From Candidatus Gastranaerophilales bacterium (GTDB lineage Bacteria; Cyanobacteriota; Vampirovibrionia; Gastranaerophilales; Gastranaerophilaceae): DNA of 41,149 bases. Below, piece after piece: positions 3,108-34,602 of the stretch. Positions within the stretch are counted from its first letter, which is position 1. The number at the start of each line of letters is the position of its first letter. The DNA lies in the NCBI GenBank assembly GCA_944324285.1, contig CALUVR010000020.1, forward strand, positions 1 through 41,149, given 5' to 3'. The position numbers and the translations under genes were made by a program. The notes under the pieces are model-generated. The model was not told the origin of the DNA. It saw only the letters and a program-made list of their open reading frames with translations, and did no database searches.

Positions 3108-3841
3108 ATGAAAACTATTGATATGACTACATTTCAGAGAAGGGGGGGGGGCATAGTTTAAAGCTTGCATTTACTCTTGCCGAAGTTTTGATTACTTTAG
3201 GAATTATTGGTTTAGTCGCGGCTATGACATTGCCGGCAGTTGTTCTGAATACACAAAATAGAGCTTTGTATACTCAGTTGCAAAAATCTTATTCTGTATT
3301 ACAAAATGCCTTACAGCAAATGAATTATGAACAAGGGTTTGTGGCAAAACCTGGTGCTTACGGCACCAGTGAATTTTATCCTGTCTTTAAAAAGTATTTA
3401 ATGATTGCAAAGGACTGTAACTATAGTGATTGTGAATCCAAGTACGAAACTGCTGAAGATGGAAGCCAGCAATGGACAAATATATCATCTAACTATAAAA
3501 CATATTCAAATAAGCAAACGAACAACAACTTATTTGATGACGGACAGGGCATATTTTTAGATGGTTCAATGATACTTATTCAAAATGAAACAAGCAATGG
3601 CAGTGGTAGTATATTAATTACTGTTGATGTTAACGGAATTAAGAAGAAACCGAACCGCTGGGGCCATGATTTATTTACATTCCAGATAATGGATAATGGA
3701 AAGTTAATGCCTATGGGTGCCAAGGGTACAAGCTATAGCGAGGCATCTTGTTCTCCTTCTTCTGCTTCAACACTAAACGGTATTGGATGCACTTATAAAG
3801 CATTAACAGACAAAGACTTTTTCAAAAATCTTCCAAAATAA
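3108..3841 (+). CDS. type IV pilin-like protein, frame interrupted at a 10-G tract
   Basis: Pilin or pseudopilin with a class III signal. The ATG at 3108 has a good ribosome site (AGAGGAG, 3095-3101), but this frame reaches TAA after 17 codons. The rest of the protein is in another frame: SLKLAFTLAEVLITLGIIG, the classic prepilin N-terminus with Glu5, then a globular domain of about 190 residues ending in a Cys-containing region (EASCSPSS, GIGCTYKAL). The break is at the G run 3142-3151. One extra G (11) or two fewer (8) joins the two frames into MKTIDMTTFQRRGGGHSLKL and onward. Starting at the in-frame TTG at 3188 would delete the prepilin peptidase site, so that is unlikely. Either the gene is switched off by slippage or the tract is mis-assembled. 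Confidence 0.75.
3142..3151 (+). repeat. homopolymer run of 10 G inside the pilin-like gene
   Basis: Ten consecutive G directly after the codon for Arg12. The run length decides whether the start codon and the pilin body are in the same frame. Confidence 0.9.
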
Positions 3842-6065: not shown

Positions 6066-6635
6066 ATGAAATCAAAAGACAAACCCATAATACAGGAAAA
6101 GAGTTCCGAGAAGGTTGCAAAATTTTTAGAGAAAAACGGGCTTCACAAAAAAGATTTTGCAGAAATGATAGGGGTAACCCTTTCTTATGTATATAACCTT
6201 ATTGATGATACAATTCCGTTTTCAACAAGAGGAACGACGTTAGAACGGATTGCGACGGTTATGGAGATTGAGCCAGAAGAATTTGAAGAATATAAAATTC
6301 CGCAGGAACCTAGAGTGATTGACGATTTCGTTGAGTATTTACACTCGGAAATGAAACATAAAAAAATGTCGGTTGTGAATTTTCTAAAAGCTTTCCCGCG
6401 TAAAAAAAGGCTTGAAATTGTAGATATTCTGCGAGGTAACCTTCCGCTTCCGATTGATTATAAAGAATTAACTATGATTGCGCAGGTTCTTGAACTCAAT
6501 AAGGATGAAGTATACAACATGTGGGAACGCCGCATGAAAAACGTTCTTGAAACCAACGGCATGAATATTTATGCAAATGCCGCGTTAGTAAATGCCATGT
6601 TTGACTGCGCAAAAAAATATATCAGCTTAAAGTAG
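6066..6635 (+). CDS. XRE-type helix-turn-helix protein with two HTH-like domains
   Basis: A 189-residue putative transcriptional regulator. The ATG at 6066 was chosen because GAGG (6053-6056) lies 9 bases before it; an upstream GTG at 6051 would use up that site. Residues about 15-65 form a Cro/C1-type HTH (VAKFLEKNGLHKKDFAEMIGVTLSYVYNLI). Residues about 85-140 look like a second, degenerate HTH (MSVVNFLKAFPRKKRLEIVDILRG). The tail is helical. There is no sensory or enzymatic domain. It is preceded by an unusual leader (6001-6065) and converges on the polysaccharide pyruvyl transferase-like gene. The target is unknown. Confidence 0.75.
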   Translation: MKSKDKPIIQEKSSEKVAKFLEKNGLHKKDFAEMIGVTLSYVYNLIDDTIPFSTRGTTLERIATVMEIEPEEFEEYKIPQEPRVIDDFVEYLHSEMKHKKMSVVNFLKAFPRKKRLEIVDILRGNLPLPIDYKELTMIAQVLELNKDEVYNMWERRMKNVLETNGMNIYANAALVNAMFDCAKKYISLK

Positions 6636-7769
6636 CCCCCCCCCCCCCGAGCTAAAACCCTCTCCAGACAACGTTTTTGGCGGATTTTGTCCATCTAAAA
6701 AATTGAGAATTCCGGTATTTTGTCCGGATTCGCCTCCGTATTGTTTATCCTTTACGGAGGTTTTGATTTCTGGGGCATTTATAAATAATGAAGCTGTTGC
6801 TTTTAATTTTTTTGCATATTGTAAATATTTTTTACTGTTGATGACAAGTCCGTTCTTATCTTTTTCTATCTTATTAATTATAAATTTATGTCTGTCATAA
6901 CCTATAATATTTAACAGTTGAGTAAGTCCGTCATATCGCTTTTTGTCATATTTTTTCGGAATAACTAAAATTACCGGAGTTCCGAGGGCAAGACACGGAA
7001 GCGCACAGTGTATTCTTGTGGTTATAACAAGTTTTGCCCGTGCATATTTTTGCAAAAGTGTTTCTGCGGTTTTGAAGCACTCCTCTTCACTTAATCCAAA
7101 ATCATAAGAATGGTGTGTATATTCAATGGCTTCTTTATTATAGTTTTTCAAAACTTCCAGTAATTTTTTATCGATTTTTGTAGGTTTTTCTCTATTAATT
7201 TCATAATCGCAGAAAATTATCTTATCGTTTCTTTCGCTTTCAGAAACTTTATAATCTTTATCAAGAGTTGTTGTAAGACAGCTTGAAAAATATGCTTTTA
7301 CCCCCTCCAGCAGTAAAAAGTTTCTTGTTGTAAAGTCACGGCAGCCTATTGGTTCATATTTTTTCAGATAACTTAAAGTTTCTTGCTTTATATTTTTTAA
7401 GTTATTAATATGCATTGAAACAAATAATGGATTAATTTTATCAGAAAATACTTCATTCCCTTTACAGATTGCATACCAGCCGTTGGCAATTAAATTTACG
7501 GGTTCTCCATCATAGTATCTTGCACTGTCTCTATCCATCAGTATGGGGGTTTTATCCGGCAGATATTGTTTTGCAGCAAGACTCTGAATATAATCTCCAA
7601 TATTAATATACTTGGCTTCATACTGTTCATTTGTAGTGTAGGCATATTTATACACTGCACACCTGCGAACTCTGGATGTAAAATTTTTGGATTCTCGCTT
7701 TTCAAAAAAATTAAAGATATTTGTTATAATCTGTCTTTTAGCTAACCAACTGCATATAATATTATTCAT
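6627..7769 (-). CDS. polysaccharide pyruvyl transferase family protein with poly-G 3' end
   Basis: Members of this family (PF04230 type) transfer pyruvyl groups to cell-surface polysaccharides. The 380-residue protein has the family's features: an N-terminal region with NIGDYIQSLAAKQYLP, a middle region with SMHINNLKNIKQETLSYLKKYEPIGCRDFTTRN, and the C-terminal signature VITTRIHCALPCLALGTPVILV. The family fold seems to end near residue 330. The last 45 residues (GESGQNTGILNFLDGQNPPK, then SSGGGGLL) are low-complexity and are encoded by a repeat-like stretch ending in 13 G. The stop overlaps the 3' end of the convergent HTH gene by 9 bases. A GAGGA ribosome site precedes the ATG. The acceptor glycan is unknown. 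Confidence 0.75.
   Translation of the reverse strand: MNNIICSWLAKRQIITNIFNFFEKRESKNFTSRVRRCAVYKYAYTTNEQYEAKYINIGDYIQSLAAKQYLPDKTPILMDRDSARYYDGEPVNLIANGWYAICKGNEVFSDKINPLFVSMHINNLKNIKQETLSYLKKYEPIGCRDFTTRNFLLLEGVKAYFSSCLTTTLDKDYKVSESERNDKIIFCDYEINREKPTKIDKKLLEVLKNYNKEAIEYTHHSYDFGLSEEECFKTAETLLQKYARAKLVITTRIHCALPCLALGTPVILVIPKKYDKKRYDGLTQLLNIIGYDRHKFIINKIEKDKNGLVINSKKYLQYAKKLKATASLFINAPEIKTSVKDKQYGGESGQNTGILNFLDGQNPPKTLSGEGFSSGGGGLL
6636..6648 (-). repeat. homopolymer run of 13 C (13 G on the coding strand)
   Basis: It encodes the GGGG near the C-terminus of the pyruvyl transferase-like protein and starts immediately after the stop codon of the convergent HTH gene. Thirteen G gives ...SSGGGGLL; 12 or 14 would give different tails. 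Confidence 0.9.
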
Positions 7770-9201: not shown

Positions 9202-10326
9202 TTACGGCTCATATTTTTCGTAAAATTCCGGCGGTAATTCCCTTATCGGATTATACAATTCTGCAATTTCTTCTTTCTCAAATTTAGTCCGAGCTTGCAG
9301 TAAGTCAGAAAACCCTTCTTTTTCTATTTTATATAAACAATAAGGATTACATCTGCATCCGGTATTAGTTGCAGCGATTACGCAGCCTCCTTTGCAGATT
9401 GAGCCGTATATACAGTCTTTACAATATCCGGTGAGCATAGAGCAGTCAAAATGCCTGTTATATTGAAATGCATTCGGATCGTTCCAAATATCAATCAGTG
9501 AACGCTCTCTTACATTCCCTTCAATATATCTGTCCAGCTGCTGAGATAAACATCCTCTGACCGTTCCGTCCGAGCCGATACCGAGAACCTGCATTCCCGC
9601 CTGACAGCCATACCACGGTCCCTGAATACTTCTTGCAAAATCACTCATATAACCTGTAACATCAGACCCGGTTACGTCAATTTTTCCTGCATAATTCGTT
9701 TTTAAATCAAGTATAAATTTCGCAATTTCCCAGAACTGTCCTTCAGTAATCATAGATTCTCTTGGCATTCTTCCGATAAAATCAGCATACTGTATCTGCC
9801 AGTAATATACACCCAAATCAAGCAACAAGTCCCTTATCTTTGGAAGCTGTGAATAATTCAATTTGTGTACGGTTGTAACAATAGATGGAGCAATCCCCGC
9901 TTCCTGAAGTTTTTTAATTGATTCAATTACATGTTCAAAACAGCCCTTGTGCCCTCTAATGTAGTCGTGCATATAAGCATCGGCTGCGTCGATGCTTATC
10001 CCGAATACAACAGGATTAATTGATTTTAAAACTTTTATGGTATCATCATTGATAGCAAGTGCATTTGAGATAAACGCGACCTTCATCCCGTGTGATTTTA
10101 TAGCTGCTGCAATTGCCCCGAAATCTTCCCTTAACAACGGATCTCCGCCGGATAAAAAGATAACTTCCGTCCCAAGCTGCTTTAAATCCGCTACTATATC
10201 AAGACATTCGGCTGTCGTCAGTTGATTATCTTTCTCAACAGAAATACAGTCAGAACCGCAATGAATACATTTTGCATTGCATTTCCAGGTTATCTCCCAC
10301 ACAACCTTTTTTAGTGTATATCTCAT
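9202..10326 (-). CDS. radical SAM/SPASM peptide maturase
   Basis: A 374-residue radical S-adenosylmethionine enzyme, most likely modifying the repeat peptide encoded divergently next door. The CxxxCxxC cluster motif is C16-C20-C23 (KCNAKCIHC), SAM-binding SGGDP is at 59-63, and the TIM-barrel core runs to about 225. A Cys-rich SPASM domain follows (C241, C259, C295, C302, C305, C311, C315, C324, C326, C330) and should hold two auxiliary [4Fe-4S] clusters. SPASM enzymes of this size form thioether or C-C crosslinks in RiPP precursors, or act as anaerobic sulfatase/quinoprotein maturases; no sulfatase or amine dehydrogenase is nearby. No separate N-terminal precursor-recognition (RRE) domain is visible. 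A GGGAG site precedes the ATG. The shared upstream region is only 144 bases. Confidence 0.85.
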   Translation of the reverse strand: MRYTLKKVVWEITWKCNAKCIHCGSDCISVEKDNQLTTAECLDIVADLKQLGTEVIFLSGGDPLLREDFGAIAAAIKSHGMKVAFISNALAINDDTIKVLKSINPVVFGISIDAADAYMHDYIRGHKGCFEHVIESIKKLQEAGIAPSIVTTVHKLNYSQLPKIRDLLLDLGVYYWQIQYADFIGRMPRESMITEGQFWEIAKFILDLKTNYAGKIDVTGSDVTGYMSDFARSIQGPWYGCQAGMQVLGIGSDGTVRGCLSQQLDRYIEGNVRERSLIDIWNDPNAFQYNRHFDCSMLTGYCKDCIYGSICKGGCVIAATNTGCRCNPYCLYKIEKEGFSDLLQARTKFEKEEIAELYNPIRELPPEFYEKYEP

Positions 10327-10427
10327 GATATTTATTTCTCCCTTTTAGTTAATAATAGTTTAAATCTTATGGTAATGTCTAATCTGTTAAGAAATGAAAC
10401 AAGGTTATCTGATTTTGAAAAAAGTGG

Positions 10428-10433
10428 TATAAT
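10428..10433 (+). promoter_or_regulatory. candidate -10 box for the repeat-peptide gene
   Basis: TATAAT at 10428-10433, 37 bases before the ATG, with only a poor -35 candidate (TTATCT, 10405-10410, spacing 17). A second TATAAT at 10441 lacks a well-placed -35. Confidence 0.35.
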
Positions 10434-10470
10434 CATACGTTATAATATATATAAATATAAGGAGATTTAT

Positions 10471-11118
10471 ATGGTTGATAATATTGGATCCGGTAATAAA
10501 TTTGATGCCGCATGGAAAGAAGCTAAAGCTCAATTGATTAAGGATGGAAATTCAAAGCCTTCGACACAGGATATATTGCATTATCTTATAGATAAGTGGA
10601 AGCCTCAGAATAATGATCCAAACAAAATTGTAGTCCAGGGATTTCATTTAGAACACGACAGTACTCCGCAAGTTAATACCAAATACGGAGCAAACATCGG
10701 CTGCCAGCAGGACGTTCAGGAGGCTGTTACCAAATACGGCGCAAACATTGGATGCCAACAGGATGTTCAGGAAACCGTCACTAAATACGGAGCAAACATT
10801 GGCTGCCAGCAGGATGTTCAGGAAACCGTCACTAAATACGGAGCAAACATTGGCTGCCAGCAGGACGTTCAGGAAACCGTCACTAAATACGGAGCAAATA
10901 TTGGCTGCCAGCAGGGGGCGCAAGAAACTCCGGTCATTAACACAAAATACGGGGCAAATATTGGGTGCGGAGATAGAACTTTAAAAATAAACCCTGATTC
11001 TTTAGAAGCAATATTAGATCACTTTAATAACGGTAATAATACATTAAAAAACGGTACTTCCGTTTCGTATGACCGAACCACAGGAACTCTTCATATAAAT
11101 AGAGATAACAAAGAGTAG
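10471..11118 (+). CDS. probable multi-core RiPP precursor with six TKYGANIGC repeats
   Basis: A 215-residue protein likely to be the substrate of the divergent radical SAM enzyme. The ATG at 10471 is chosen because AAGGAG lies 6 bases upstream; an upstream in-frame ATG at 10369 lacks one. Residues 1-69 form a charged, helical leader-like region (FDAAWKEAKAQLIKDG, then ILHYLIDKWKPQ). Residues 70-154 carry five 17-residue units TKYGANIGCQQDVQETV, and a sixth TKYGANIGC lies at 158-166. The only cysteines are one per unit (78, 95, 112, 129, 146, 166), each preceded by Asn at -3 (N-I-G-C). Residues 167-215 form a follower (LKINPDSLEAILDHF) with no signal peptide. Asn-x-x-Cys equals the crosslinked motif of the streptococcal NxxC radical-SAM peptides. 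No peptidase or exporter gene is adjacent. Confidence 0.75.
   Translation: MVDNIGSGNKFDAAWKEAKAQLIKDGNSKPSTQDILHYLIDKWKPQNNDPNKIVVQGFHLEHDSTPQVNTKYGANIGCQQDVQEAVTKYGANIGCQQDVQETVTKYGANIGCQQDVQETVTKYGANIGCQQDVQETVTKYGANIGCQQGAQETPVINTKYGANIGCGDRTLKINPDSLEAILDHFNNGNNTLKNGTSVSYDRTTGTLHINRDNKE
10678..10968 (+). repeat. 51-base tandem coding repeat, five units plus a sixth core
   Basis: Units start at 10678, 10729, 10780, 10831 and 10882. The fifth is diverged at its end, and after a nine-base insert a partial sixth begins at 10942. Units 3 and 4 are identical over the TKYGANIGC part; the others differ there only at third positions. Confidence 0.95.
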
Positions 11119-12498: not shown

Positions 12499-15400
12499 TT
12501 ATCCGATTTTTGTAAATGTCTTTTCTTCTACCGGCTTGTTATATCCCATTTTTTTCTGGTGTTTTTTGAAGAAATAATACCCGCCGCTCGCGATTGCTGC
12601 TACACCGAGAATACTGAAGGTTACAATCTTGCCGAGTTTGGATTTTGATGCAGTTTCAGCACCGCTTTCTGCCTCTATAACTATTTTTTGAGTCGCAATC
12701 CCAAATTTTTCAACAAGTCGCTTCATCGGTTTTTTGTTACGTGCTTCCATGCCTTTGTCCCGTTCAAAGATTTCGTTCATGTAGCGTTCGTTTGCTGTTT
12801 TTCCGTTATTGTAATCTGCGTTTTGATGCCAATCCATTTTATCTTGCTGTAAACCGGCGTTCTGCGCCATTTCTCTGTACGGATGAATTGTCTTATTTTT
12901 TAATTCTTCACTCAGTTGGTCGTGGATTGCCTTTTTAAAGTCCTCATCACTTGCCTGCATTGCCATCACCAGACAATCTTTAAGTTCTAATGTCGCATTC
13001 TTCCATCTTGCACCGTCTATGGCTTTAAAATCTTTACCATCAAGTTTCTCGCCTAAAATTTCTTCAAGTCTTTCTTTTCTTAGAAGATAAGGATTCTTAG
13101 TTAACAATCCGCGCATATCATTGATGAAATCAGGTGCACCTCCTGTATTAATTGAAATACAAGGAGTTGCAGAGGCAAAGGATTCTAAAGGCGTAATTCC
13201 GCAAGGTTCAAATCTTGAAGAGAATAATGTCCAGGTCGCACATCCTACAAGTCTGTTTGCAAAGAAATTGTTTACATACATTACGTTACCAACGTATTTG
13301 CCATTGTCAATTTTTGGAAGCTGAACTTCTATTAAATCTTTCACCCATTTGTAATCATCAGCAGTGGAATCCCATACACCTGCACCAAAAATGGCTTTTG
13401 TACGAAGCTTTAATTCATCAGGAATATTTTTGTCTTTCAAAAATTCAAAGTATTCCTTAATCGCACCGACAGATGTAGGATAACCTTTCTGCGGATCAGG
13501 ACGCCCCCATCCCATGAATAATTTGTCACCTTCTTTGTAGCCGGAAAGGTGACCGATTACAGTAGCACCAGTTGAAACCTGGGCATCACTACAGAATACT
13601 TTTGTTACACCCTGCTGTCCTCCGTGCTGATATGCATGGTCTATTATGTTTAAAAGCCATTTTGTATTGTTTTCTTTTGCTTTTATTACATCATCAATAT
13701 TATCTTTTACTATTTTTCCGTCTTTATCTAGCTCATATTCGTACTTGTATGTTTGGAATCCTCGTTTGAGTTTTGATAAAATATTCGGATGCCCGGATCT
13801 GTGGAACCCTGCTTTAGGATTATCCAGCTGAAGATTGGCAGGCGTGCTGCCGTTTGTAACATCATGCGTTTCTATTTCATTCAGTTTTTTGGTTAACCCG
13901 AGAGCAATATCAGGAGTATCAGGATTTTTCATCTCCTTGCCGTAATTCATGGAAACAGTACCTGCTTTGTTGTTTTTCCCGTCAATTTTAGAGGCAGCAA
14001 CCGGCGTCATTGTTATGTTATAAGTATTAAAATCATCCATAAAGTTTTTGAAGAACGGATCAAAAATTTGTTTGATAAATATCGCTTCAGGTTTTAGCGG
14101 TTTTCCGTCTTGCGGAGCGAATTTATGCCAATTTTTTTCAATATATTTTATCTCTTTTAACTGCGGATGATTTCTCAATTCTTTAACATCTTCTTCTGAT
14201 GCTACAAGTCTAAAGAATTCAAAAGGGTTATTCATCCAGCCTTGATAATCTCTCCCCGGATTATGGAAACTCCCGTGGGAAATTATACCTCCGTTGTAAT
14301 ATTCATCCCCGGCTGCAGACTTATCTATAATACTATTCATTATTAAGAATGCAGGTCGGTCATGCAGCCACCAGTTTGCAGGGTTAAAATTACCATGCTT
14401 TTCAGTATTTAACTGAGGTAAAGCTTCAACAAGGGCACGGTTACTGTCTGCATAGAAAGTGTTGGTGCTGACATGACGAATTCCGTCCTCAGTTCCCATG
14501 GTTCCATAGGCACCTGTGGTTCCGTATGCACCAGTACTATAGGCACCGCCGTATGCTCCGTATACACCGCCTCCCTGCTGGTTTACCCCGTATGCGTTTG
14601 TAAACTTTGCAAGATCTTTTGTATGAATAAAATATGCAGAGTTTCTTTCATTCACAGCAGGAGCTGCAGCAGCCTGTATTTTTTGAAGTCCGTCTTTATA
14701 TTCTTTAGTTTCTTTTAGTTCTTTTAATTTTTGTTCAATTTCTGCTTCATGTTTTTTTAATTCTGTATTTATTTTTTCTGCATATTCTTTTTCAAGTTTT
14801 TCTATTTCAGGGTTCGGCTCAAAACGAAACATGTCTTTTTTGAATTTTAGTTCATCCTCATCGTTGAGGGTTTTGAGTCTTTCTTCATATTTATTTTCTT
14901 TTTCCAGAGCTTCTTTAATCTGTTTTACAAAAGGTTCAGTTACTCTGCTTCTTGCCTGTTGTGCATACTTATTTTCAGCCTCAACAACAGGATCGCTGAT
15001 ATATGAATCCTTTGCACGGAAGAGTCTATAGGTAACTTCTTTTAATTTATCGACAGATTCATCCGAAACAGCTTTAAAAGAGCCTGAAACGCCTGTATCC
15101 TCCAGCTGAATGTATGAACATAACCCCTTAGCGTCGGGTTCAGTCTGGATAACATAGGCAAGATTTTTAACCTCTTTATTTAACCTTTTGGCAACATCCT
15201 CAAGAGATTCCATCTGACCTGCAGGATGAAAGTTTTTCTTGGAAAGCCTTGCTTTAGGCTGCCCTTTTTCATCGTATTCAAGTTCTACAACTTTCACACC
15301 GCCATCCGGGTTTGCATAAGAATGATAAGGCGAGAAATCTCTGACATCTGCACCTTCATGGATTCTCCAACTTTCAGGACCTTCTTGTGCGACAACGCCG

Positions 15401-15678
15401 AGCCCGCCTAAATTATATGAATTGATTTTATACCTTTTATTTTCGGGAGCATAAGATAAAAACTGGTTGATATTCTTGTCTCCGCCGGTAAATGTTAAAT
15501 GAATATGTGGAGTCTGCTCGGTTCTTGAAAGCCCTTTGAGATAAACAGGCGCAGTATAATTCAACGAATTAATCTGTCTTTGACTTATATAATTTGCAGG
15601 GCTGTTTGCCTGAATATTGTTGGTGTGTTCTCTCAAATTAACCGCATAAGTTTGCGGCATTACCGAAGTGATACGCAT
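12499..15678 (-). CDS. large starch/glycogen synthase-like glycosyltransferase (GT5 type) with C-terminal membrane anchor
   Basis: Predicted alpha-glucan synthase using NDP-glucose. The ATG at 15678 is chosen because AAGGGG lies 5 bases upstream; an ATG at 15699 lacks a site. The protein has 1059 residues, about twice the usual GT5 length. GGLGVVAQEGPESW (91-104) is the donor-loop/N-domain motif with K-T-G-G-L-G degenerate to N-L-G-G-L-G. SRFEPCGITPLESFASATP followed by TGGAPDFI (about 815-850) is the C-domain signature containing the conserved Glu. Insertions explain the size: a Lys/Glu coiled coil at about 229-329, and a Gly/Tyr-rich run (GAYGGAYSTGAYGTTGAYGT) near 365-390. Residues about 1018-1036 form a transmembrane helix followed by KKHQKK. 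The N-terminal 66 residues end in LTFTGG, like two other proteins here. Confidence 0.7.
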   Translation of the reverse strand: MRITSVMPQTYAVNLREHTNNIQANSPANYISQRQINSLNYTAPVYLKGLSRTEQTPHIHLTFTGGDKNINQFLSYAPENKRYKINSYNLGGLGVVAQEGPESWRIHEGADVRDFSPYHSYANPDGGVKVVELEYDEKGQPKARLSKKNFHPAGQMESLEDVAKRLNKEVKNLAYVIQTEPDAKGLCSYIQLEDTGVSGSFKAVSDESVDKLKEVTYRLFRAKDSYISDPVVEAENKYAQQARSRVTEPFVKQIKEALEKENKYEERLKTLNDEDELKFKKDMFRFEPNPEIEKLEKEYAEKINTELKKHEAEIEQKLKELKETKEYKDGLQKIQAAAAPAVNERNSAYFIHTKDLAKFTNAYGVNQQGGGVYGAYGGAYSTGAYGTTGAYGTMGTEDGIRHVSTNTFYADSNRALVEALPQLNTEKHGNFNPANWWLHDRPAFLIMNSIIDKSAAGDEYYNGGIISHGSFHNPGRDYQGWMNNPFEFFRLVASEEDVKELRNHPQLKEIKYIEKNWHKFAPQDGKPLKPEAIFIKQIFDPFFKNFMDDFNTYNITMTPVAASKIDGKNNKAGTVSMNYGKEMKNPDTPDIALGLTKKLNEIETHDVTNGSTPANLQLDNPKAGFHRSGHPNILSKLKRGFQTYKYEYELDKDGKIVKDNIDDVIKAKENNTKWLLNIIDHAYQHGGQQGVTKVFCSDAQVSTGATVIGHLSGYKEGDKLFMGWGRPDPQKGYPTSVGAIKEYFEFLKDKNIPDELKLRTKAIFGAGVWDSTADDYKWVKDLIEVQLPKIDNGKYVGNVMYVNNFFANRLVGCATWTLFSSRFEPCGITPLESFASATPCISINTGGAPDFINDMRGLLTKNPYLLRKERLEEILGEKLDGKDFKAIDGARWKNATLELKDCLVMAMQASDEDFKKAIHDQLSEELKNKTIHPYREMAQNAGLQQDKMDWHQNADYNNGKTANERYMNEIFERDKGMEARNKKPMKRLVEKFGIATQKIVIEAESGAETASKSKLGKIVTFSILGVAAIASGGYYFFKKHQKKMGYNKPVEEKTFTKIG

Positions 15679-15849
15679 CTTTACCCCTTTTCTTTTCACA
15701 TGCTGCAGAAAATATTATCTTCTGCCTTTATAGTAAAATGCTGACAAATTTTTTTTCAACACTAAGCACTCGAAATATTAAGAAACATTAAGTAAATTTT
15801 TTTCAATATTAAGAGTTTTTTAAATACGTTTAAAGTAAAATTAAATATG

Positions 15850-15914: not shown

Positions 15915-17195
15915 ATGGATAGATTTTTTGGAATTTTTGGTATTATTTTTATATTTTTAATATGCTTTTTAATGTCTAATAATAAAAAACACATTAATTA
16001 TAAAACGGTCGGTATGGGATTTTTATTACAAGTAGGGCTAGCCGTTTTTATATTTAAGGTTCCTCTCGGACGGTCATTATTTATGAACGTCGGCATGTTT
16101 ATCCAAAAAATTCTTGATTTTGCAAAAGAGGGCGGAAGCTTTGTGTTTGGACCTTTAATTGATAATGAAAAGCTGAATTTAGTTTGGGGTTTAGGGGCAA
16201 ATGTTTTTGCGCTACAGCTGATTTGTTCGTTGATTTTCATGATGATAATCGTGAATATTCTCTATTATTACGGAATAATGCAGAGGATTGTCCCCCTTTT
16301 CGGAAAGGCTATGAATAAAATTATGTCTGTAAGCGGTGCAGAAGCTTTATCTAACGTTGCAAGTGCTTTTCTCGGGCAGATTTCAGCCCAGATTATGATA
16401 AGACCTTATCTGGAAAAATTAACAAGATCCGAACTTCTTGCATCAATGGCAGGGAGTATGGCTTGTATTTCCATGGCAACAATGCCTATATATATTGGGC
16501 TTGGAATTCCGGCGCACTACCTTCTCGCGTCATCGTTTATGGCAGCACCTGGTGCGCTTGTAATCTCAAAAATTATGTATCCGGAAACTCATACCCCTGA
16601 AACAAGCGAGAATTTTAAAATTACCTACAGCAAACGCAAACGCCCTTATATTAACGTGTTCGACGCAATATCCGCGGGAGCCTCTGAAGGTATGAAGGTT
16701 GCAATAAATGTTATTGCAATGATTTTGGCATTAGTTGCGCTGGTTGCAATGATTGACTGGTTTTTGAAAGGTTTTGGAATTTTATTTGTTAAATATCTGC
16801 ATATAAATTTTGCCTCATTTGATATGACTCAATTATCATTAAGAATGATTTTAGGTAAAATATTTGCAGTTTTTGCATTCTTTATGGGGGTTCCTCTTCA
16901 CGAGGCTACCACTGTCGGAAGCCTTATGGGGACAAAACTTGTCTTAAATGAAATGGTGGCTTACGTTGATTTGAGCAGCCTCCCTCAGAATTTATCCGAT
17001 AAAAGTTACTTAATCGCGTGCTTTGCATTATGCAGTTTCGGGAATTTCGGCTCTATTGCGATACAATTAGGCGGCATCGGAGAACTCGCGCCAAACCAGC
17101 GTAAAAACCTTGCAAGACTTGGAGTTAAAGCGCTAATTGCCGGAACCTTAACATGCTATATGTCAGCAGCAATCGTCGGCGTTCTATTTAATTAA
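15915..17195 (+). CDS. concentrative nucleoside transporter (CNT/NupC family)
   Basis: Inner-membrane importer of nucleosides driven by a cation gradient; 426 residues is a typical length. The family order is intact: N-terminal TM pair, Gate-type central region (RPYLEKLTRSELLASMAGSMA at about 176-196, MAAPGALVISKIMYPET at about 214-230) and C-terminal region (NEMVAYVDL, CSFGNFGSIAIQLGGIG). The C-terminal Glu, Asn and Ser that bind nucleoside in characterised CNTs are present. The TM4 motif normally written GQTEAPL is here GQISAQI, losing the T and E that contact the base, so the substrate may differ. AAGGA lies 5 bases before the ATG. It diverges from the GT5 gene and is monocistronic. Confidence 0.85.
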   Translation: MDRFFGIFGIIFIFLICFLMSNNKKHINYKTVGMGFLLQVGLAVFIFKVPLGRSLFMNVGMFIQKILDFAKEGGSFVFGPLIDNEKLNLVWGLGANVFALQLICSLIFMMIIVNILYYYGIMQRIVPLFGKAMNKIMSVSGAEALSNVASAFLGQISAQIMIRPYLEKLTRSELLASMAGSMACISMATMPIYIGLGIPAHYLLASSFMAAPGALVISKIMYPETHTPETSENFKITYSKRKRPYINVFDAISAGASEGMKVAINVIAMILALVALVAMIDWFLKGFGILFVKYLHINFASFDMTQLSLRMILGKIFAVFAFFMGVPLHEATTVGSLMGTKLVLNEMVAYVDLSSLPQNLSDKSYLIACFALCSFGNFGSIAIQLGGIGELAPNQRKNLARLGVKALIAGTLTCYMSAAIVGVLFN

Positions 17196-32766: not shown

Positions 32767-33549
32767 TCAACCTATCGGATTTGGCTGAAGTTCCTGTTTA
32801 TTTGTATAATTTACGAGAGCTTTAAATACAAACGGGTGCATTTTTCCGTCCTGTACATCTTTGTAGATAATTGTTAGTGCGGTTTCTCTATCAAGCGGGT
32901 CTTTGTAAGCTCTTTTTTCTGTCAATGCCGAATATTTATCAGCCATCGCCACAATTTGAAGGTTTAAGTCGGCATTGAAATTCTTATCTGCAAACGGGTA
33001 TCCTGTTTTCTTCGCATTCTGGTGGTGATTTTTTATTATATTAAGCGTTGTTTTATCTATTGAACTGTTTTTTAAAAGTTCATAACTAAGGAGAGAGTGT
33101 CTGTGCATAATTTCAGTTTCAAAAGGTGTAAGTTTTCCGTGTTTATTAAGGATTTCATCAGGGATTAATGCTTTCCCGATATCGTGAAGATAAGCAGCAT
33201 CTGATACGGCTTTTGCATTGACCTTATTTTTTAGCGAGAATGGAAGATTTTCAATAATCCCTTCTGCAATTTTTTTTGTATCTGATGCGTGGTTTTTAAG
33301 GAGATTATTTAATTCTGACATATTCAGTTTGACAGGAGCATTGACTTCCGTCAAAATTTTAGTAATCTGCGGGTTTGTCTGAATTGCTTTTCTTAAATAG
33401 AATTCCGAAGTGTAACGGTTCGGGGAAGAACTTTCAAATCTGTCATTTGAAACATCGCCGCCAAAATTTACCCGCGTTCTATAGGTGTTAACCCCGTTTG
33501 CCGGCGAAACTGCATTTATATTCTGAAATTTAAGAAATTCTATTACCAC
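32767..33549 (-). CDS. HD-GYP-like phosphohydrolase domain protein
   Basis: Probable metal-dependent phosphohydrolase; HD-GYP proteins hydrolyse cyclic di-GMP. 260 residues from a GTG directly after an in-frame stop; no better start is available and no ribosome site is clear. The first 50 residues are disordered with RVNFGG (26-31). The HD domain has LHDIGKALIPDEIL (about 121-134), MHRHSLLSYELL, NHHQNAKKTGYPF (the HHExxDGxGYP motif with degenerate centre) and MADKYSALTEKRAYKDPL (about 202-219). Metal ligands are kept, so activity is plausible. Confidence 0.75.
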   Translation of the reverse strand: MVIEFLKFQNINAVSPANGVNTYRTRVNFGGDVSNDRFESSSPNRYTSEFYLRKAIQTNPQITKILTEVNAPVKLNMSELNNLLKNHASDTKKIAEGIIENLPFSLKNKVNAKAVSDAAYLHDIGKALIPDEILNKHGKLTPFETEIMHRHSLLSYELLKNSSIDKTTLNIIKNHHQNAKKTGYPFADKNFNADLNLQIVAMADKYSALTEKRAYKDPLDRETALTIIYKDVQDGKMHPFVFKALVNYTNKQELQPNPIG

Positions 33550-33795: not shown

Positions 33796-34602
33796 TTACA
33801 AAACATGTTCAAGAAAATATTTGTAAATATTTTCTGCTGTTGAAATTACCCGTTGCTTTAGATTTTCATCAGTATAAGTCGAATTTTTATAATATTCCAT
33901 ATCATCTTTTAAAATGTGGTAGGTTTCAACTTTACATGTATTTGCCGCATCAGTCCCCAGTTTTGCAATATCATCTTCTGCGTAAACAACAGTTCTGAAG
34001 GTATCATATAGAGATTCAGGATTATAATATTCAGAAATTTTCTCTCCATGCCAGCCCGTTTCATTTACATCATTGATGTCTTTCAAAAGTTTTACGAGTT
34101 TATCCTGCTTTTCCACCGGTAATGCAGCAAAAGCTTCAAGAGGTTTTGCTGCAATATTAAGTTCATTCTGGGCAAATTCCAAAATTGCAAACCTTTCATC
34201 TTCAGGACGCCCTGCGGTTAGATTTAATACTCTTTTCAAAAATTTTCTATCCGGGGATTTGCCGTATTCTTCGCTTTCCAGACTAAAAATTTCTTTTAAT
34301 ACATTAGTTTTATTCTCGGGATTTTGCTCTTTTCGTAATGAACCGAGCATATCCGTAATATCAAATTCGTCAAACTTACGGCATCTGTGTTCGCGCACTT
34401 TTCTCAGAATTTGAATACACTCAGCCTCAAAAGCATCTTGAGCTTTGGCAAGTGAACCGAAATATACATTTGTTCCTTTTGTATTGTATATAGATGTTTC
34501 AAAAATTTTTTCGTTTCGTGAGTCACTGCTAGAAGCAGACTCTATCCTGCCTGCTTGCGTTGTCTGGTAGTTTTTTACTGATGAAACCGGATATATATTC
34601 AT
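33796..34602 (-). CDS. hypothetical protein with N-terminal VYFG motif
   Basis: A 268-residue protein of unknown function. The first 45 residues are Ser/Thr/Asn-rich and probably disordered, followed by NVYFGS (45-50). The rest is helical and charged (AFEAECIQILRKVREHRCRK, ITDMLGSLRKEQNPENK). AGGAAA lies 8 bases before the ATG. The N-terminal plan matches the HD-GYP-like neighbour and the GT5 protein. No catalytic motif seen. Confidence 0.6.
   Translation of the reverse strand: MNIYPVSSVKNYQTTQAGRIESASSSDSRNEKIFETSIYNTKGTNVYFGSLAKAQDAFEAECIQILRKVREHRCRKFDEFDITDMLGSLRKEQNPENKTNVLKEIFSLESEEYGKSPDRKFLKRVLNLTAGRPEDERFAILEFAQNELNIAAKPLEAFAALPVEKQDKLVKLLKDINDVNETGWHGEKISEYYNPESLYDTFRTVVYAEDDIAKLGTDAANTCKVETYHILKDDMEYYKNSTYTDENLKQRVISTAENIYKYFLEHVL

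Follow-up and report, generated by a model that had tools for sequence, protein, structure and literature searches.

The Gene and Its Parts

The DNA analysed here (the window) is the entire 41,149-base contig CALUVR010000020.1 of a Candidatus Gastranaerophilales bacterium, whose 2.03 Mb genome is held in 55 contigs. Its minus strand carries a gene for a 1059-residue protein resembling the starch and glycogen synthases of glycosyltransferase family 5 (GT5), with a hydrophobic stretch near the C-terminus; the protein is considered here as a candidate membrane-tethered isoform of α-glucan synthase. Public genomes scanned with a 17-sequence family alignment yielded 93 relatives, of which 80 were kept, and the residue census covers 81 sequences, namely the window protein and one family protein from each of the 80 loci. 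The census omits a weak 43-bit match (L099_20), holds one sequence without its N-terminal part (L079) and, judging by the tree, contains two near-identical pairs (L084/L085 and L122/L123). The parts of the gene, with model confidence given as the predicted local distance difference test (pLDDT), are as follows.

12499-15678, minus strand: coding sequence of the 1059-residue GT5-like glycosyltransferase with a C-terminal hydrophobic anchor (translation, homologues and predicted fold)
15684-15689, minus strand: Shine-Dalgarno-like AAGGGG, 5 bases 5' of the ATG (read from the sequence)
15484-15678, minus strand: leader, residues 1-65 (MRITSV...LTFTG), mostly of low confidence (pLDDT < 50 over 1-11 and 20-66)
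15484-15492, minus strand: F63-T64-G65, a conserved F-x-G that immediately precedes strand 1 of the N-terminal lobe (N-lobe; alignment of 81)
15397-15414, minus strand: NLGGLG, residues 89-94, equivalent of KTGGLA in E. coli GlgA, with the donor lysine replaced by Asn89 (alignment)
14644-15009, minus strand: helical, coiled-coil-like insertion in the N-lobe, residues ~224-345 (high-confidence AlphaFold2 model)
14473-14592, minus strand: Tyr/Gly-rich loop, residues 363-402, beginning at Tyr363, of low confidence (pLDDT < 50 over 366-401)
13486-13503, minus strand: R726 and K731, which correspond to R300 and K305 of E. coli (invariant in 81)
13183-13218, minus strand: SRFEPCGITPLE, residues 821-832, in which E824 corresponds to E. 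coli E377 and E832 gives EX7E (both invariant in 81)
12568-12627, minus strand: predicted transmembrane anchor, residues 1018-1037, Lys-flanked (hydropathy; low AlphaFold confidence)

The frame is intact over 1059 codons from the ATG at 15678 to the stop at 12501-12499; a GTG seven codons upstream is judged the less likely start, because AAGGGG sits five bases before the ATG. The ratio of nonsynonymous to synonymous divergence (dN/dS) is 0.05-0.10 against four of five congeners, with dS near saturation, and the fifth comparison is saturated. The gene is under purifying selection; this and the existence of homologues (93 relatives in the contig scan) reject a chance open reading frame (ORF). 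The preliminary description called the protein double-length, and this stands, as the genome's own GlgA has 480 residues; it needs correcting in that the gene lies on the minus strand and the extra length is not a second catalytic domain. A true duplication is rejected, as a single GT-B fold covers residues 69-980, and the additional residues are made up by the leader, an enlarged N-lobe, the helical insertion, the Tyr/Gly loop and the C-terminal tail.

Fold and Family Placement

The AlphaFold2 model, from a run with the window protein and 69 homologues, is confident (mean pLDDT 85.4, predicted template modelling score 0.83) and features the GT-B fold. The top match in Foldseek is rice granule-bound starch synthase (GBSS; E 3.5e-12), with glycogen phosphorylases (GT35) appearing from rank 3. 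VIA-align, a re-examination of Foldseek's own matches, places first 6gnf, the GBSS of the cyanobacterium Cyanobacterium sp. CLg1 (Z 26.3 over 487 residues, 3.7 Å, 16% identity), in a tie with the Cyanophora GBSS (Z 25.8); Arabidopsis SS4 (6gne; Z 24.9, 468 residues, 4.7 Å), Agrobacterium GlgA (1rzu; Z 23.9, 455 residues, 3.0 Å) and E. coli GlgA (Z 22.6) follow, the GlgA matches spanning 451-455 residues, and phosphorylases start at rank 10 (Z 20.7). The GT-B fold and the sugar-nucleotide pocket on which the preliminary description had made its assignment depend were thus both looked for: the fold is GT-B, starch and glycogen synthases are its best matches, and pocket residues are present.

Among Pfam models only the general PF00534 (Glycos_transf_1) scores above its cut-off, in the C-lobe (31.1 bits versus 26.4, E 2e-7); it also matches the genome's own GlgA and therefore cannot separate GT4 from GT5. 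NCBIfam matches are all sub-threshold, with GlgA the highest. By its fold and its equivalents of E. coli GlgA Arg300, Lys305 and Glu377, the protein belongs to the GT5-type starch/glycogen synthase superfamily in the broad sense. It is filed as GT5-like rather than standard GT5 because Lys15 of the KxGG[LM] loop that marks this superfamily is lost, Asn89 standing in its place. The fold and chemistry are known, and the anchored, enlarged isoform is new as far as the searches show; no published description of the protein family was recognised among the papers listed on Melainabacteria/Gastranaerophilales glycogen, starch synthase and glycosyltransferases and on membrane-anchored glycogen synthases of GT5.

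Active Site

Residue roles are those listed for E. coli GlgA in the tables of PMC6210743, and positions are transferred by alignment with that enzyme, whose numbering is used here. According to these tables Arg300, Lys305 and Glu377 are phosphate contacts and Lys15 contacts ADP-glucose; Glu9, Leu19, Tyr95, Asp137 and Tyr165 bind glycogen, and Tyr95, the equivalent of Tyr363 in the window protein, stacks on glucose +2. GT5 hallmarks, proposed earlier for both ends of the catalytic fold, are recognised as NLGGLG (89-94), HN....YQG (472-480), NG (609-610), GRPDPQKG (725-732) and SRFEPCGIT (821-829).

The equivalents of Tyr95, His161, Asn246, Arg300, Lys305 and Glu377 are invariant (81/81), that of Glu9 is found in 80/80 and that of Tyr165 in 80/81; Asp137 and Cys379 are each kept in 72/81, with Cys and Gln, respectively, in nine. 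Among nucleotide-sugar contacts the window protein retains Gly18, His161, Asn246, Arg300, Lys305, Glu377 and Thr382; all five glycogen-binding residues are retained as well, so the acceptor side resembles that of a glucan synthase. Trp138 is replaced by Arg in 81/81, and the EX7E spacing formed by E824 and E832 is equally constant, E. coli GlgA having Tyr and the genome's own GlgA Ile at the position of E832.

The donor side is altered. The KTGGLG loop had been described as degenerate, which is borne out by Asn89 and extends to the family at large, where the Lys15 position holds Lys in 19/80, Asn in 16, Tyr in 13, Ser in 12 and Asp in 7. The window protein also has Gly723 for Val297 and Trp724 at position 298. 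A donor pocket appears to be present, yet the donor may differ; the earlier suggestion to this effect is kept as a possibility, since pocket residues are in place but Lys15, 297, 298 and the adenine side are changed.

In a FastTree phylogeny (828 columns, rooted on GlgA) the members without Lys15 fall mostly into one large clade together with the window protein. A separate clade of nine members (L143, L145, L147-L152 and L154) features Cys at Asp137 and Gln at Cys379 and retains Lys15 in 8/9. The loss of Lys15 is not clean across the tree: within the large clade L112, L136 and L139 have Lys, and outside it L142 and L144 lack it, as does one member of the Cys137/Gln379 clade. Glu377 is replaced by Ala in 4/12 distant relatives and in none of this GT5-like family; the four distant proteins with Ala are possibly inactive paralogues. 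All four are GT5-like, have the same kind of leader and show Glu at Gly380 beside the Ala at Glu377; in two of them, L059 and L060, the motif reads SRFAPCELT.

Additions to the Catalytic Core

The F-x-G at the end of the leader is well conserved, with F in 80/81 (one gap) and G in 76, A in four and one gap. The N-lobe is enlarged throughout the family: the stretch matching residues 118-223 measures 89-124 residues in 80/81 (L079 being cut off) versus 34-41 in three GlgA proteins. The coiled-coil insert of the preliminary description corresponds to the helical insertion at ~224-345, modelled with high confidence as helices at 230-262, 264-281, 290-308, 311-322 and 325-337; an insertion of at least 60 residues occurs in 19/81 homologues. 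The GAYG-type repeat noticed at the same time lies within residues 363-402. A loop of at least 20 residues with at least three Tyr extends from the Tyr363 position in 32/81, and 27 of these were read as Tyr/Gly-rich, the other five having a different composition.

The C-terminal hydrophobic helix with its KK tail was likewise recovered, as IVTFSILGVAAIASGGYYFF at 1018-1037 followed by KKHQKK. The best hydrophobic window falls within the last 110 residues in 80/80 members, with Lys/Arg on its flanks; this test drops L123, which is cut by a contig end, and keeps L101, which reaches a contig end but includes the helix. A strict hydropathy test, allowing no other window ≥ 1.0, is passed by 70/80, compared to 3/107 control genes of at least 400 residues, and a threshold of 1.6 is reached by 48/81. 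The segment between flanking charges has a median of 20 and a maximum of 24 residues (80 members), the minimum of 19 being set by the window used, and the next best hydrophobic window of the window protein scores 0.85. With a single hydrophobic span near the C-terminus and none at the N-terminus, the layout is that of a predicted tail-anchored protein. The earlier proposal of a link to the cell surface is unsupported, the N-terminus being without a hydrophobic signal stretch.

Several unrelated proteins have a start that resembles the leader of the glycosyltransferase, with M[RKN][IV]xx[IV] and [VI]xFx[GAS] joined by a polar linker. Such leaders occur in the window at 33799-34602 (minus strand) and 32770-33549 (minus strand) and elsewhere in its genome (G000) at C3:76895-78052, C3:68183-69700, C7:31315-32826 and C3:70390-72366; the proteins include an HD domain protein by family search and AAA-like, HAD-like and other proteins by reading, and two end in a Lys-flanked hydrophobic helix. 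For a tag of the form M[RK]IxxV ... [VI]xFxG a first sample gave 9/18 versus 51/310 genes (Fisher p 0.0016), with the motif picked after looking and some of the nine resembling chance rows; the fixed pattern gave 3/8 versus 37/253 in a second gene sample (p 0.11), and a shared tag is not established.

Distribution and the Glycogen Pathway

Lineage labels of the relatives are mostly Candidatus Gastranaerophilales, Melainabacteria or Cyanobacteria, with one Candidatus Scatousia; one Fusobacterium sp. and one Brachyspira label are probably mislabelled bins. A broad alignment (A2), which takes in GlgA itself, matches 149/292 genomes of the phylum at E 1e-20. At least 110 of the 130 genomes listed for the window's family (gut Melainabacteria, Gastranaerophilales) have a matching ORF of at least 740 residues, a count made by hand in which the matching ORFs include distant subfamilies; among the matches listed, such an ORF also occurs in at least one genome from a different family of the order. 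Outside the order 20 genomes match, their best E-values ranging from 1e-20 to 1e-22. As judged from these matches, the large GT5-like family is lineage-specific, being found here almost only in this lineage. The protein alone as query matched 35/59 relatives, weak matches to other glycosyltransferases included.

The preliminary description had suggested looking for a normal GlgA and a branching enzyme, and the same genome has a canonical GlgA of 480 residues (TIGR02095, 509 bits; cut-off 328), GlgC (497 bits) and, from GH57, a branching-enzyme homologue that scores 511 bits where the equivalog cut-off is 1000, beside a GT35-type phosphorylase (563 residues) and GH13 proteins. A CBM48-type branching enzyme was sought in the genome with no CBM48 match, and the GH57 homologue appears to fill its place. 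Because GlgA, GlgC and the GH57 homologue are also present, the window protein is considered a second isoform; a replacement for a missing GlgA is rejected.

Proposed Role and Alternative Explanations

With a probability of about one half, the window protein is a membrane-tethered α-glucan synthase isoform that faces the cytoplasm and places or starts glucan. Computation shows the fold, the conservation of residues and of the hydrophobic C-terminus, a normal glycogen pathway in the same genome and purifying selection, whereas activity, product, donor, membrane insertion and the positioning or initiation role are inferred. The GT-B core (~69-980) would probably pass glucose from a nucleotide-glucose, in a retaining reaction, to the non-reducing end of an α-1,4-glucan that rests against Tyr363, Asp440 and Tyr478. 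The cytoplasmic membrane, to which the C-terminal helix would tie the enzyme, would then be the site where glucan chains are begun or lengthened, and bulk elongation would be performed by soluble GlgA. The Tyr/Gly loop beside the acceptor site and the helical insertion may hold the chain or gather copies of the enzyme.

In glycogenin the glucosylated residue is a tyrosine. Self-glucosylation of glycogenin is described in PMC11046441, and a long shot by comparison is that the window protein is a self-priming synthase, with the Tyr/Gly loop glucosylated on its own tyrosines and anchor, primer and synthase in one chain. If true, this chain would set the location and number of glucan particles, and in relatives its expression may switch via G/C runs.

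Several findings weigh against the role as tethered glucan synthase. PF08323 (starch synthase catalytic domain) gives no match at E up to 1, although 21/27 members of alignment A2 match it, and TIGR02095, the GlgA equivalog, scores 30.9 bits versus a cut-off of 328.45. The donor lysine Lys15 is absent in 61/80 homologues, including the window protein with its Asn89, and the adenine side at 354-360, where the alignment is less certain, is changed to Asn804, Phe805, a gap and Ala807. AlphaFold models the anchor helix with low confidence, and lysines lie on either side of it; with mean net charges of +2.9 before it and +3.05 after it, the topology is not fixed by the flanks, since they are alike. 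Two of 12 congeners, G001 and G010 (92% and 99% complete), have no match to the window protein, so the protein is dispensable; with alignment A2 the match in G010 reaches only the GlgA-like level (1.6e-28). No glycogen gene was recognised in 21 conserved neighbour groups, each judged by the initial residues of a single member. Finally, G/C runs in the leaders of 13/80 relatives, described below, hint at phase variation, which is commoner for surface structures than for storage glucan.

Some of these points suit an active GT-B transferase working outside α-glucan storage, with another nucleotide sugar as donor or with a different acceptor, for example an envelope polysaccharide or a glycolipid of the membrane; this is the leading alternative, though tentative and, on balance, rather unlikely. 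It would account for the many different replacements of Lys15, the changed adenine-side positions, the invariant E832 (EX7E occurs in many GT4 enzymes) and the Arg at Trp138 in 81/81; a membrane anchor suits a lipid-linked acceptor, and the other clade, with Lys15 kept in 8/9, carries Cys and Gln in place of Asp137 and Cys379, respectively. The leader runs suggest switching, which is likened to that of surface-glycan genes, and make this alternative somewhat likelier and the tethered glucan synthase somewhat less likely. It is opposed by the retention of all five glycogen-binding residues in the window protein and by the starch and glycogen synthases heading the solved structural matches. The loss of Lys15, the large disordered and helical additions and the presence of a soluble GlgA would also fit a non-catalytic scaffold or regulator that holds glycogen at the membrane via a glucan-binding site. 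This is improbable, as the catalytic set is invariant: Arg300, Lys305 and Glu377 equivalents in 81/81 are unexpected after a loss of activity, and the change of Glu377 to Ala seen in 4/12 distant relatives never occurs in this family.

The remaining explanations concern the C-terminus and its surroundings. A hydrophobic C-terminus that binds protein partners or a lipid monolayer rather than spanning the membrane would explain the positive charge on both flanks, the Gly-rich segment and the low model confidence; it is very improbable given a span-like length (median 20, maximum 24, n = 80) that is kept while the sequence varies. Nucleotide sugars are located in the cytoplasm, and this, together with a leader devoid of a hydrophobic signal stretch (the next best hydrophobic window being 0.85), leaves hardly any likelihood that the protein works outside the cytoplasmic membrane and ties glucan synthesis to the cell surface, even though the predicted anchor, the lysines after it, which suit a cytoplasmic C-terminus, and possible phase variation in relatives would agree with such a location.

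Relation to Known Systems

Compared to bacterial GlgA (GT5, TIGR02095), the window protein shares the GT-B fold (Z 22.6-23.9), Arg300, Lys305, Glu377, His161, Asn246 and the acceptor residues; it is 2.2x longer, has lost Lys15, has the second Glu of EX7E and adds the C-terminal hydrophobic anchor, the F-x-G leader, the Tyr/Gly loop and the helical insertion. The cyanobacterial GBSS 6gnf is the top structural row, however its solved chain has 514 residues versus 1059 and aligns only with model residues 71-979, the anchor being outside the match. GT4 enzymes share the PF00534 match in the C-lobe and the EX7E spacing, whereas the best folds found are GT5 enzymes and the GT5 acceptor residues are retained in the window protein.

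To our knowledge, the start and placement of bacterial glycogen particles are far less worked out than in plants. In plants, according to PMC10801857, the site of starch granule initiation is fixed by MFP1, a thylakoid-anchored protein with coiled coils that steers SS4. The window protein resembles this pair in its catalytic fold (6gne, Z 24.9), in being a further synthase isoform and in combining a predicted membrane anchor with coiled-coil-like helices; anchor, helical insertion and core lie in one chain here, whereas SS4 is brought by MFP1, and the likeness is of layout only. If the proposed role is correct, the anchored isoform would be a one-protein counterpart of SS4/MFP1 common in a sister lineage of cyanobacteria, the hosts being non-photosynthetic gut relatives of that group. 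The family also forms a natural active-site series, in which Lys15, or Asp137 with Cys379, is changed in separate clades at the same genomic place while the rest is fixed; such a series helps to interpret GT5 specificity.

Genomic Neighborhood and Homopolymer Runs

The gene shares its upstream region with a recurrent neighbor; the family search covered eight of the window's own ORFs.

15915-17195, plus strand: divergent neighbor, Na+-dependent nucleoside transporter (Pfam PF07662/PF01773), given as context and not as a part

At 49/80 loci a relative of this transporter, oppositely oriented, is found no more than 2 kb upstream, as it is at 48 of the 72 loci that extend at least 1.5 kb upstream. 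It stands beside the gene in 5/5 window-type congeners tested and in 9/9 members of the Cys137/Gln379 clade; the two active-site versions thus share a genomic place and are therefore likely orthologues.

Homopolymer runs are known for slipped-strand phase variation. In 13/80 relatives a G/C run of 9-12 lies in the leader at codons 12-52 (eleven C10, one G12 and one G9; L143, L078, L147, L083, L100, L097, L119, L084, L085, L093, L088, L089 and L092), and the rest of the gene, 17x longer in bases than the leader, has no such run among the 80 relatives. From clade to clade the leader runs vary in both base and frame; all 13 leave the frame open, so that no off allele was seen, and in the relatives the 250 bases before each start contain no run of at least 7. 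The window gene itself has no G or C run of at least 8. Its genome has 16 G/C runs of at least 9 in 795,385 examined bases versus 0.44 expected from base composition, ~36x. Phase variation or programmed slippage is possible in the relatives with leader runs.

Such runs also lie elsewhere in the window. One, at 6636-6648, is in the 3' end of a polysaccharide pyruvyl transferase-like gene (6627-7769, PF04230) and encodes a Gly-rich tail. Another, a G10 run at 3142-3151, puts a pilin-like gene (3109-3841, plus strand) out of frame: the ATG at 3109 meets a stop soon after the run, and a different frame carries on the pilin signal (FTLAEVLITLGIIG). This may be an assembly error, or the gene may be phase-variable and in its off state. 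Farther along, a 249-residue ORF (10369-11118, plus strand) contains a 51-base tandem repeat at 10681-10915 (4.6 copies, unit ~TKYGANIGCQQDVQETV) and is divergent to a gene for a radical SAM/SPASM protein (9202-10326, minus strand); by sequence features the two look like a repeat-type precursor of a ribosomally synthesized and post-translationally modified peptide with its maturase.

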